64,000 bases of DNA, taken from NCBI GenBank assembly GCA_026552955.1, contig JAPMTS010000003.1, forward strand, positions 18,382 to 82,381, given 5' to 3'. A program made the translations under genes and the position numbers. The stretch is from Candidatus Methanoperedens sp. (GTDB taxonomy: Archaea > Halobacteriota > Methanosarcinia > Methanosarcinales > Methanoperedenaceae). Under the pieces are notes generated by a model. That model searched no databases and was not told where the DNA came from. It saw only the letters and a list, made by a program, of their open reading frames with translations. Of the stretch, positions 18,926 through 26,790 are shown piece after piece; the stretch's first letter is position 1, and every line of letters begins with the position of its first letter.

Positions 18926-19705
18926 TTAAGACATATAAACTTCTTCGCCCGGATGAACAACGATGCCCTGCGGGGTAATTTCATATGGATGGATGTTCTT
19001 GCTGTGGTCCGAACCTCTCATCTTGAAAACCTCTATACTCCTGATCCTCACACTGTCCACACGTTTGTTATACATTAATATCGTACCTTCAGTTACGAAG
19101 GTTTCAACTCCGAACCTGCTTGTGGAATTATCATCAATTATTTCACAGGTCATGAGGGAAGTCAATCCCAGTACTTCAAGAGTTGTGCTTAATTTTAAAA
19201 GCTCCACTCTTATCTTGGAAGGGTCCTGCAGGTAAAAACCGATAGATGTCGTTCCATCAACAAGAGCTCTCTTGGCATCGATCGTATCCTGTATCGCAAT
19301 TATCTGGTCCATCATGGAACGCAAATCAAACGGTCTCACATCAACGTATTTTTCATGAGACGGTATTCCGATCTTTGTGGAACATGCATCAATTATGGCA
19401 AGCTTTCCTTCATCCTCAAGGGTTTCAAAATCCCATCCGAATTTCCGGACATTTTCCCTGACCTGGTCAGGACGCTCCTCTGTTGCTATATAGATACCAT
19501 TTTCTCCATATTTTGTAATGCCATTATAAAGATACTGAAGCCCAAATATGGTCTTGCCACATCCTGCCGCTCCCGATAACAGATATGATCTGTTTCTTAA
19601 TAATCCACCGCCACACAAATCGTCAAAACCTTCTATTCCTGTAGGAACACGCTTTGAGTCACCTTTTTCGATCTTGATTTTTTTCTTATCAACCATGAAA
19701 TTCAA
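18926..19705 (-). CDS. KaiC-domain RecA-fold ATPase
   Basis: This 259-residue single-domain KaiC-like protein has an intact Walker A (SGAAGCGKTIFG), the paired catalytic glutamates of KaiC in ATEERPDQ, and a Walker B-like strand at RALVDGTTS. Single-domain archaeal KaiC proteins are thought to act in signalling rather than in a clock. The PTGIEGFDDLCGGGL start motif is typical. It lies directly upstream of tpiA and opposite the acyl-CoA synthetase. It is the only one of three KaiC-like proteins here with a complete P-loop, which makes it a useful contrast to the 24-26 kb pair. Confidence 0.85.
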   Translation of the reverse strand: MNFMVDKKKIKIEKGDSKRVPTGIEGFDDLCGGGLLRNRSYLLSGAAGCGKTIFGLQYLYNGITKYGENGIYIATEERPDQVRENVRKFGWDFETLEDEGKLAIIDACSTKIGIPSHEKYVDVRPFDLRSMMDQIIAIQDTIDAKRALVDGTTSIGFYLQDPSKIRVELLKLSTTLEVLGLTSLMTCEIIDDNSTSRFGVETFVTEGTILMYNKRVDSVRIRSIEVFKMRGSDHSKNIHPYEITPQGIVVHPGEEVYMS

Positions 19706-19870
19706 CCTGTATATAATATTCTTTCACTATATAAATACTTATTCGTCTTATACTTATAATTATGAGCCTTTGGCCAATGTTTTGCAAATAGCGGGGAACA
19801 AATTTTATGCAAAATAATGCAAAGATTTATTTGACCTTATTCCTATTAATAATTTTCAGGGGGGCGTATT

Positions 19871-24055: not shown

Positions 24056-24207
24056 GTTTGATATTGAGGTATCAAATGATTATATAGTTTGTTAAGTCAA
24101 AAGCTTTATTATGTTACAAACATACAAACATGAAATTACATTATATTTACTATCTTTCAATAGACTTATTTATTGGAATAAAATATCATATATGGGCCTG
24201 TCAGAGT

Positions 24208-24217
24208 TTATATATAT
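24208..24217 (+). promoter_or_regulatory. TATA box of the KaiC/GTPase/Roadblock cassette
   Basis: TTTATATATA lies 36-45 nt before the ATG at 24253, in an AT-rich 200-bp intergenic region. The distance allows a transcript start about 25 nt downstream and a short leader. A BRE-like purine stretch (CAGAG) lies immediately upstream. Confidence 0.5.
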
Positions 24218-24252
24218 AGGAATATCTTAATAGTATCATAAGCACAATAATC

Positions 24253-24957
24253 ATGAGCGACTATGCAATAGGTATTAAGGAACTGGATGATGCGATCGGA
24301 GGCATAAGAAAAGGGTCAAATATTATGCTTATTGGACCTCCCATGAGTGGAAAAGAGGCCATCCTGAATTATATTATGTATCATGGGGCTGTAGAAAATG
24401 AAAATGCTGTCATTACTGTTACCACACGCGAATCAGCAGCCCATATCCTTGATTGGTTCAAAGAAAATATGTTAAACCTTCCCATGGAAAGGATAGGGAT
24501 AATTGACTGCGTTACAAAAACTCTTGGGGGCGCTGCCATTGAAAATGAAAACATTAAGATTGCAAGCAGTCCAGTGGATCTGACAGGGATCGGCGTTAAG
24601 ATCAGCCAATTTTTTGAGGAATTCTTTATGAAAAAGAATACACAGAAAATACAGCTGCATATTAATTCACTATCAACAATATTGATGTATTCTAATATAC
24701 AGACTGTTTTCAGGTTCCTTCATGTTTTTACCGGGCGTATCAAAGCAGCAAGTGCTCTGGGAATCTATGTAATAGAGAGCGGTATGCATGACGAACAGGC
24801 AGTGGCTACTTTAAAACAGTTATTTGACGGTATGATCGAAATTAAATCCGAGGAGGATAAAAACTTTATAAGAGTGGTCGGCATATCTCAAAAACCAACT
24901 CCCTGGTTTGAATATGAGATCCAGGGATATAATATAAAGATCATAAGGGGAAATTAG
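24253..24957 (+). CDS. KaiC/RecA-like signalling ATPase with altered P-loop
   Basis: This 234-residue RecA-fold protein has the KaiC-type start IGIKELDDAIGG and a changed Walker A, GPPMSGKEA, in which the usual Thr/Ser after Lys is Glu. The Walker B strand is also weak (QLHINSLSTIL). ATP may bind poorly or not be hydrolysed. One nucleotide separates its stop from the next start. It resembles the stand-alone RecA-like proteins that accompany archaeal signal-transduction genes. It is probably a partner or paralogue of the next protein's N-terminal half. Confidence 0.75.
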   Translation: MSDYAIGIKELDDAIGGIRKGSNIMLIGPPMSGKEAILNYIMYHGAVENENAVITVTTRESAAHILDWFKENMLNLPMERIGIIDCVTKTLGGAAIENENIKIASSPVDLTGIGVKISQFFEEFFMKKNTQKIQLHINSLSTILMYSNIQTVFRFLHVFTGRIKAASALGIYVIESGMHDEQAVATLKQLFDGMIEIKSEEDKNFIRVVGISQKPTPWFEYEIQGYNIKIIRGN

Positions 24958-24958
24958 A

Positions 24959-26128
24959 ATGGTGGAAACAGGTATCCCCAAGCTTGACGAATTTCTTGGT
25001 GGGGGGATCCCAAAAGGGAAGAGTCTTGTTTTTTACAGCCAGCCGGGTGTGGAAGGTGAGATATTCGGGTTGCAGACCGTACACCAAACCCTTAAGAAAG
25101 GCGGGATCTGCGTTTTTGTTGTATCGAGCACTATACCCGATATTGTAAAAGGCCAATTCAAAGAGTTTGGCTGGGATATTAACCTGTACAAAGACAAATT
25201 ATTCTTTGTAGATTCCTACAATCCTTTGATAGGGGCCCCATCGAACGAGAAATATGTTATCTTAAATCCTGATAACATAGAAGATTTCAATAAGACAATA
25301 ATTGATATCATCAAAGAATTACCGCCAAGCACTATTGTTTTTGGTTCACTTTCCACAATTATGGACCTGTGCGGTGAAAAGGAAACCATTGAAACTGTCA
25401 GGACATGGAATAAAATGGCCATGTTGTATGATCATGTACTTGTTTATAATTTCACCGCCTGGCCATATTCTGAGGAAACATTAAATCTGATTAAGGGAGA
25501 CCTTTTTAATTCAGTCATATCTATTGGCGGAATAGCTGAACGTGTTATCTTTGGCCAGTATTTCGGAATTTTGAAATCCGATTGGGCGCAGATAACCAGG
25601 AAATCTATGCTTTTCAGGGTTTTAAGACCGGGCGGGGTAAAGATATTCATACCGAAAATACTTGTAACAGGTCCTTTTGATGCCGGAAAGAGCACGTTTG
25701 TCCACGCGCTTTCTACCCGTGCGATATCAGTTGACAGGCTCGGTACAACTATTGCCATGGACCATGGTCATGTGGATTATAAAGGTTTTAGTGCAGATAT
25801 ATTCGGGACACCGGGCCAGGAACGGTTTGACCCGATCATAAAATTACTCAGCAGCGAGTCCATGGGTGTTTTTCTCGTTGTGGATTCAACAAACCCTTCT
25901 GATTTTATTCGAGCAAAACAAATGTTAGATATCACAAAGTCCTATGGCCTGCCCTATGTTGTGGTCGCAAATAAACAGGATTTGCCAGGGGCTTTAACTC
26001 CCGAAGAAATTAGGGAACAATTCCATCTGCCGGATGACGTTCCCATCGTTCCTGCAGTAGCTAAAGATAAGATCGGGGTATATGAAGCATTTGAAGTGTT
26101 GATAGACAGGATCACGGGTGGGATTTGA
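24959..26128 (+). CDS. KaiC-like domain fused to small Ras/Arf-like GTPase
   Basis: Residues 1-225 form a KaiC/RecA-like domain (GIPKLDEFLGGGIPKGKSL) whose P-loop has decayed to SQPGVEGE. Residues 230-389 form a complete small GTPase: G1 GPFDAGKST (238-246), switch-I Thr near 263, G3 DIFGTPGQERF (280-290), NKQD (338-341) and a G5-like VAKD. The fusion suggests that an inactive RecA domain senses or scaffolds while the GTPase switches. The Roadblock gene begins inside its stop codon (ATGA overlap). MglA/MglB-type pairs use Roadblock proteins as GTPase activators, so the same relation is likely here. No membrane anchor is visible. Confidence 0.85.
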   Translation: MVETGIPKLDEFLGGGIPKGKSLVFYSQPGVEGEIFGLQTVHQTLKKGGICVFVVSSTIPDIVKGQFKEFGWDINLYKDKLFFVDSYNPLIGAPSNEKYVILNPDNIEDFNKTIIDIIKELPPSTIVFGSLSTIMDLCGEKETIETVRTWNKMAMLYDHVLVYNFTAWPYSEETLNLIKGDLFNSVISIGGIAERVIFGQYFGILKSDWAQITRKSMLFRVLRPGGVKIFIPKILVTGPFDAGKSTFVHALSTRAISVDRLGTTIAMDHGHVDYKGFSADIFGTPGQERFDPIIKLLSSESMGVFLVVDSTNPSDFIRAKQMLDITKSYGLPYVVVANKQDLPGALTPEEIREQFHLPDDVPIVPAVAKDKIGVYEAFEVLIDRITGGI

Positions 26129-26496
26129 TGGCTGATACAATAGACATGGTAGATAAACTATTAGCAGACCTGAAAAATGTGGGCGGTGTGATAGCATGTG
26201 CGGCTGTAAGCCGTGATGGTCTGCTCATACGGGCCAATATGCACAAGGAACAATATGTGGAATCCCTGGCCGCAATGTCGGCTACAATCCTCGGGGCTTC
26301 AGAGACTGCGACCACGCATGTTGAAATGGGCATTCCAACAAGGGTCATTGTTGAAACTGATTATGGAAAATTAATAGTTATCGGAGCAGGACCCAAGGCT
26401 TTGCTGATTCTTCTTGCAGGTCAGAATATCGGATTGGGCCTGATACTTCTGGAACTTGACAAATCGGCAATCAAACTAAAAGAGATATTGACATGA
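26128..26496 (+). CDS. Roadblock/LC7 domain protein
   Basis: This protein of about 122 residues has the Roadblock/LC7 fold: helix DMVDKLLADLKNVGGVIA, a strand pair around AAVSRDGLLI, and a C-terminal strand-helix with VIGAGPKALLILL. Roadblock proteins dimerise and regulate Ras-like GTPases (MglB, Ragulator, dynein light chains). It overlaps the upstream GTPase stop by 1 nt and the downstream yhbY start by 4 nt. The context makes it the probable GTPase-activating or localising partner of the KaiC-GTPase fusion. Confidence 0.85.
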   Translation: MADTIDMVDKLLADLKNVGGVIACAAVSRDGLLIRANMHKEQYVESLAAMSATILGASETATTHVEMGIPTRVIVETDYGKLIVIGAGPKALLILLAGQNIGLGLILLELDKSAIKLKEILT

Positions 26497-26747
26497 ACAA
26501 ACAGGAAAAAAAGGCAGAAGCAACTAATATTGAGCCTACGCTCCATGTGGGGAAATCAGGTATTGATGTTGTAGTGGAAGAGTTAAAAATCCAGTTGAAG
26601 AACAGAAATATGATAAAAGTTAAAATGCTCAAATCTGCTTTTATTGAAACCGGAAAAAAAGAACTGGCTGAAAAACTGGCTGACCTTTCAAATTCAGAAC
26701 TTATTGAGGTGAGGGGTAATACTGCAGTTTTTTGCCGAAAAAGGTAA
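26493..26747 (+). CDS. CRS1-YhbY domain RNA-binding protein
   Basis: This 84-residue single CRM/YhbY domain has TLHVGKSGID near the start and NRNMIKVKMLKSA, matching the family's IF3-C-like RNA-binding fold. YhbY homologues bind pre-50S particles and help ribosome assembly. The start overlaps the Roadblock stop (ATGA), so it is probably translated with the signalling cassette. A perfect 8-bp stem hairpin follows 24 nt after the stop. Confidence 0.8.
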   Translation: MNKQEKKAEATNIEPTLHVGKSGIDVVVEELKIQLKNRNMIKVKMLKSAFIETGKKELAEKLADLSNSELIEVRGNTAVFCRKR

Positions 26748-26771: not shown

Positions 26772-26790
26772 CCCTTGAATCATTCAAGGG
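26772..26790 (+). other. Perfect hairpin between yhbY and rps19e
   Basis: CCCTTGAA-TCA-TTCAAGGG forms an 8-bp stem with a 3-nt loop. It is not followed by a T-run, so it is not a standard terminator. It may be a processing or attenuation site in the leader of rps19e, whose start is 43 nt downstream, or an operator. Confidence 0.4.

Follow-up and report, generated by a model that had tools for sequence, protein, structure and literature searches.

What does a complete small GTPase do at the end of a KaiC-like protein that has no ATP site, and what is the relation of both to the second KaiC-like protein and the Roadblock protein encoded on either side? The window analysed here, a stretch of 64,000 nt, belongs to contig 5 of a 2.48-Mb Methanoperedens-like (ANME-2d) genome, the closest named relatives of which are Candidatus Methanoperedenaceae (ANME-2d) genomes with up to 96% identity. 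The cassette lies on the forward strand and begins with a stand-alone KaiC/RecA-fold protein of the DUF7504/KaiC type with a degraded ATPase site, here called KaiC-A (24253–24957). After a spacing of 1 nt this is followed by a KaiC–GTPase fusion protein of 389 aa (24959–26128) and then by a Roadblock/LC7 protein of 122 aa (26128–26496), the ATG of which at 26128 overlaps the TGA of the fusion by 1 nt (an alternative TTG start at 26125 is possible). A YhbY/CRM RNA-binding protein (26493–26747; CRS1_YhbY, 2.7e-16), which overlaps the Roadblock gene by 4 nt, is probably encoded by the last gene of the transcript; beyond it lie S19e and then PDCD5. A perfect inverted repeat, CCCTTGAATCATTCAAGGG (26772–26790, forward strand), identical in the three nearest relatives, stands between yhbY and S19e as a possible transcript boundary. 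Upstream, a TATA-box-like element, TTTATATATATAG (24207–24219, forward strand), precedes the ATG by approximately 35–45 nt, and a TTTATATATA block occurs at the same distance in nearly all Methanoperedens loci, both being recognized by pattern only. Among the lineages compared below, we take family f10 to be Archaeoglobaceae, f15 Methanocella and f17, f20 and f27 Methanomicrobiales, and genomes G336, G302, G254 and G245 are presumably A. fulgidus, A. veneficus, M. paludicola and M. arvoryzae, respectively.

KaiC-A matches DUF7504 (1.8e-26) and KaiC (6.3e-9) in Pfam, and its score of 36 bits against PF06745, above the cut-off of 26.6, places it in the KaiC family. Its AF2 model (mean pLDDT 88) has FlaH/ArlH (4yds; E 3.9e-12) as the best PDB fold match. 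The Walker A motif reads GPPMSGKE (24334–24357, forward strand), with Glu in place of Ser/Thr, and by motif a functional Walker A/B site is absent from the KaiC-A of the window genome. The P-loop is GKE or GKD in essentially all ANME-2 loci; elsewhere KaiC-A has GKS and the Walker B Asp, and thus an intact site by motif, in Archaeoglobaceae, GKE, GKD, GKN or GKH in several other families and, in alignment, no P-loop in Methanomicrobiales. A second cassette is present in ANME-2 families f3 and f4 (L121, L122 and L126), in the order Roadblock, KaiC–GTPase, KaiC-A, and the KaiC-A of this cassette has an intact GKS.

The fusion protein was delimited with Pfam and NCBIfam domains and is conserved at full length in the class and the phylum; NCBIfam holds no equivalog for it. 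Its N-terminal part (24959–25633, forward strand) matches KaiC in Pfam (1.3e-17, residues 2–142), and at 64 bits against PF06745 (cut-off 26.6) it also belongs to the KaiC family. The alignment with PH0284 (2dr3; E 1.3e-14), the closest solved structure, marks this domain, which has a dN/dS of 0.03–0.07, as a pseudo-ATPase: PGTGKT of PH0284 aligns with PGVEGE, and QPGVEGEIF (25040–25066, forward strand) stands where the P-loop would be. Most families have a PG[VI][ED]G-like motif at this position, and GK[ST] was found there in no sampled lineage. A regular-expression count had given an intact Walker A in 62/90 fused domains, but this was an artefact of GGIPKGKS (residues 15–22), an accidental match to the Walker A pattern that precedes strand b1 (residues 22–27), and none of these matches falls at the aligned P-loop position.

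The C-terminal part, reached via a VLRPGGVKIFIPKI segment, is a small GTPase domain (25634–26125, forward strand) with Pfam matches to Arf (8.8e-13) and Ras (1.7e-11) over residues 233–385 and PDB matches to Arf (E 3.4e-10) and MglA (1e-6) structures. Motifs G1 (GPFDAGKS, 25670–25693), G3 (GTPGQ, 25805–25819; residues 283–287) and G4 (NKQD, 25970–25981) are intact on the forward strand. Arf traits were not found in the fusion, which has FGTPGQ in place of WDxGGQ and begins with a KaiC domain, not an amphipathic helix. MglA groups 2–5, on the other hand, are defined by GTPGQ in G3 and Thr in G2 (PMC4316618), and the G2 of ANME-2 loci, GTT at residues 262–264, has the conserved Thr without the group-1 Arg. 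In 90 distinct fusion ORFs G1 occurs in 90/90, a count that holds partly by construction since G1 belonged to the selection pattern, although alignments show it independently; G4 is present in 89/90 and GTPGQ in 83/90. GTP binding and hydrolysis by the fusion are predicted from these motifs. AF2 gives two recognizable domains, with best matches to PH0284 and Arf proteins, and leaves their arrangement open (pTM 0.53; residues 184–216 below 50). The linker between the domains looks short, because a continuous strand (residues 226–237) runs from the last KaiC strand into strand 1 of the GTPase.

Two relatives of this protein deserve mention. A paralogue of the fusion in Methanoperedens (L002:949–2160 in the window genome and L156:6720–7940 in a relative) carries, ahead of the GTPase, a tandem duplication of 13 residues (SDWIKESRKSMLKSDWTKESRKSML); the window-genome copy reads GTSGQ in place of GTPGQ and lacks an adjacent Roadblock gene. 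An unfused version is found in family f11 (L172:479–1717), where a stand-alone small GTPase of the same type, 165 aa long and without a KaiC domain, is flanked by two Roadblock genes.

An earlier sequence-only reading had given the coordinates, order, 1-nt gap and overlap of these genes, which a check of the sequence confirmed, and had described a KaiC-like protein with an altered P-loop followed by a P-loop-less KaiC domain joined to a complete GTPase; both descriptions stand, GPPMSGKE and SQPGVEGE being conserved across approximately 35 ANME-2 loci. Its further proposal was a possible sensor in which two inactive RecA domains would form a ring and control the GTPase. That both are inactive is correct for the window genome, where the two folds are degenerate, but not for the family: the Archaeoglobaceae KaiC-A retains GKS and the Walker B Asp, and the second ANME paralogue also has GKS. 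Judged by the alignments, loss of the P-loop in every sampled lineage applies to the fused domain only.

The third protein scores 50.2 bits against Robl_LC7 (2.1e-13; cut-off 23), which makes it a member of the Roadblock family, and its closest solved structure is 7f8m_A (E 3.2e-14). A pattern scan of species genomes yielded 35 loci, 33 of which have the order KaiC-A, fusion, Roadblock, YhbY; the remaining two are a locus cut by a contig end (L044) and a GTPase-less paralogue (L045). The triad recurs in over 70 distinct loci, spread across more than ten families, and is therefore more than a chance association. Among the 90 distinct fusion ORFs, pooled from Halobacteriota, a neighbour within 400 nt on the same strand was KaiC-A in 88, Roadblock in 77 and both in 75. 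The same domain order, proposed as a search by the sequence-only reading, is thus found in many Halobacteriota, the three genes co-occur as its model supposed, and the Roadblock gene does appear dedicated to the GTPase. In two of the 13 ORFs that have no adjacent Roadblock gene this lies just past KaiC-A (family f29), and in one it is off the contig end; by the same definition Roadblock is truly not adjacent in eight Methanomicrobiales loci and the Methanoperedens paralogue, and it was undetectable in one such genome (G436). Greedy gene calling had masked Roadblock behind antisense ORFs in some loci (cluster c3), from which it was recovered by profile searches.

Presence in whole genomes follows a similar pattern. 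The fusion occurs in 73 of the 238 genomes of the class sample, all 73 of which have a Roadblock gene, and of the 165 genomes without the fusion 160 have no Roadblock and only five do. In the phylum sample (394 genomes) Roadblock accompanies the fusion in 58/59 genomes and occurs without it in 90. Since the sampled genomes are related, these counts are not independent events, but they indicate that the fusion nearly implies Roadblock and not the reverse; a rule that Roadblock implies the fusion is ruled out by its common occurrence alone, for example in an A. fulgidus-like genome. Sequences cluster largely by family in the gene tree, which argues for vertical inheritance, several deep nodes being weakly supported. 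The cassette was dropped as a general marker of methanotrophy, as it is also found in Methanocella, Methanomicrobiales and Archaeoglobaceae. Within family f5 (genomes G077, G181, G183 and G185–G187) it is confined to genera g14 and g27, both without MtaB, while in the other f5 genera tested MtaB is present and the cassette absent, as expected if g14 and g27 are ANME-3.

Our working hypothesis, which we consider likely, is that the cassette encodes a three-protein archaeal signalling module in which an MglA-type GTPase and its Roadblock partner are mounted on a KaiC-fold scaffold or sensor. Purifying selection acts on all parts, dN/dS against six close relatives being 0.03–0.08 for the KaiC and GTPase parts and 0.08–0.12 for Roadblock, with several dS values near saturation. 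Because the GTPase motifs are intact while the KaiC ATP sites are eroded and dN/dS is low, ATP hydrolysis seems dispensable and the GTPase would be the retained activity. The fused KaiC domain is kept under low dN/dS although Walker A is missing from it, and KaiC-A is degraded outside Archaeoglobaceae; from this, with G1 and G4 intact, we infer that the switch that has been retained is the GTPase with Roadblock, the KaiC folds being its scaffold or sensor. At the core, the nucleotide state of the GTPase (G3 GTPGQ) would be set by the co-encoded Roadblock dimer, which may serve as a GAP, an exchange factor or a scaffold factor; the GTPase, unlike MglA, would act as one domain within a protein of KaiC fold that lacks an ATP site. 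The fused domain and KaiC-A would oligomerize and present the GTPase domains in a physical complex. Evidence for a physical unit comes from the genes themselves, which stay together in the rearranged orders Roadblock–fusion–KaiC-A (the second ANME paralogue) and Roadblock–KaiC-A–fusion (family f29), and from the Methanocella paludicola-like genome (G254), where KaiC, GTPase and Roadblock form a single ORF of 568 aa. The lack of an adjacent Roadblock gene at the eight Methanomicrobiales loci and the Methanoperedens paralogue, the many Roadblock genes without a fusion and the low pTM of the fusion model count against the module.

Genes adjoining the cassette differ between lineages, and no single output follows from them. 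Outside Methanosarcinales the cassette adjoins V4R genes and genes of the siroheme type, or else a phosphate transporter or genes of the diphthine synthase type. One flank in Methanomicrobiales holds DtxR/FeoA-type and FeoB-type genes, and the opposite flank holds DUF357 genes as well as diphthine synthase-type ones; FeoB and diphthine synthase were named by eye from the sequence. A further KaiC-like gene lies approximately 5 kb upstream of the cassette in the window (18929–19723, reverse strand), near an acyl-CoA synthetase-type gene, and is kept in several Methanoperedens loci. All 15 Archaeoglobaceae genomes that have the fusion carry a V4R gene (cluster c25; Pfam), of the family ancestral to TRAPP Bet3, shortly downstream of Roadblock and in the same orientation; V4R is also found in family f33, and none is present at the window locus. 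One Archaeoglobaceae genus (L140, on contig 79 of G441) has a protoglobin gene (Pfam 4.8e-10) between Roadblock and V4R, which is a possible gas or redox input. These Archaeoglobaceae neighbours are the sole hint of sensing, and ligand input through V4R and protoglobin would fit the module there. We know of no exchange activity for the V4R-containing cassette. V4R is homologous to TRAPP Bet3 (PMC2253512), and a bolder proposal, which we regard as unlikely, is that the cassette is a small-GTPase platform outside Asgard archaea, a counterpart of TRAPP/Ragulator-type control with GTPases mounted on a dead KaiC/RecA assembly, Roadblock as their regulator and V4R or haem-type sensors providing the input.

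Two further explanations appear improbable. The first is a polarity or pilus/archaellum switch of the MglA/MglB type, in which the cassette directs the localization of type IV pili or archaella, or toggles them, and KaiC-A is ArlH/FlaH-like. The FlaH fold match of KaiC-A and a weak match to ArlH models agree with this, as does the finding that many type IV pilus loci contain KaiC-like genes and Roadblock arCOG02603 (Makarova, 2016); however, those conserved neighbours of the cassette that were identified, which are not all, include no pilus or archaellum genes. The second, which we rate no higher, is that the cassette and YhbY act together on ribosome assembly or translation status. The four genes up to yhbY overlap or nearly abut, yhbY directly follows Roadblock in those ANME-2 (ANME-2a–d), g14 and g27 loci that extend that far, and S19e and PDCD5 are next in line in most Methanoperedens and ANME-2 loci. 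This link is limited to Methanosarcinales, other lineages having different neighbours, and the adjoining translation genes may be incidental.

An Elongator-like scaffold, with KaiC-A and the fused domain forming a pseudo-RecA ring similar to Elp4/5/6 that binds RNA or tRNA, is very improbable: both RecA folds are diverged and lack ATP sites, and KaiC-A has weak Elp4 (PAXNEB) matches (1.4e-4), but at 21.5 bits these fall below the curated cut-off of 28, KaiC-family matches are stronger, and the GTPase and Roadblock have, to our knowledge, no Elongator counterpart. That the KaiC genes are decaying relics alongside an ordinary MglA/MglB pair, as the unequal loss of Walker motifs between lineages might suggest, is hardly credible given the strong purifying selection on the KaiC domains, the conserved replacement motif at the fused P-loop position and the retention of the KaiC genes across the phylum.

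The module of GTPase, Roadblock and KaiC folds would set an MglA/Roadblock switch within KaiC-based signalling, which has been proposed as archaea's own network. Pairs of a small GTPase with Roadblock are a known kind, as are the KaiC hubs of archaea, inactivated KaiC domains among them. The searchable literature gave no example of the two combined in one conserved cassette, nor any description of the fusion, which the sequence-only reading had also held to be uncharacterized; an earlier mention is possible. A survey of MglA proteins dropped sequences of more than 240 aa and found archaeal group 4 to be without conserved neighbours (Wuichet survey; PMC4316618). Like MglA/MglB of Myxococcus and Thermus and MglA groups 2–5, the cassette has a Roadblock gene beside the GTPase, and it shares GTPGQ in G3 and Thr in G2 with groups 2–5, but its GTPase forms the C-terminal end of a KaiC fusion of 389 aa with a KaiC-like partner and is not a single-domain protein of 150–240 aa. 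The actinobacterial conservon (CvnA-B-C-D) is likewise a compact cassette, which combines Roadblock and a small GTPase with a larger protein serving as sensor or scaffold; at the window locus, however, no histidine kinase CvnA or CvnC gene is directly adjacent and KaiC folds are found instead.

Archaeoglobaceae cassettes resemble the TRAPP/Bet3 (V4R) and Roadblock/longin platforms for Rab and Rag GTPases, Asgard homologues included, in lining up small GTPase, Roadblock and V4R genes; they differ in that the GTPase is MglA-type and KaiC-fused, with no longin gene seen, and V4R is absent at the window locus. This adjacency is in contrast to Asgard archaea, in which such regulator genes are generally not in operons (PMC10933270), and an ancestral link between these regulators therefore becomes testable. 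If the platform proposal is true, a TRAPP/Ragulator-type counterpart would be open to study in culturable Archaeoglobaceae and Methanocella. Finally, archaeal KaiC-like proteins (ArlH/FlaH, PH0284 and 'iKaiC') share the KaiC/RecA fold, and inactivated archaeal KaiC domains with fused partner domains have been reported (PMC5847659). What sets the cassette apart from these is that a small GTPase with its own Roadblock gene is the fused partner and that the fused domain is P-loop-less in every sampled lineage; it also provides a comparative series, with ATPase sites being eroded and the GTPase remaining intact.
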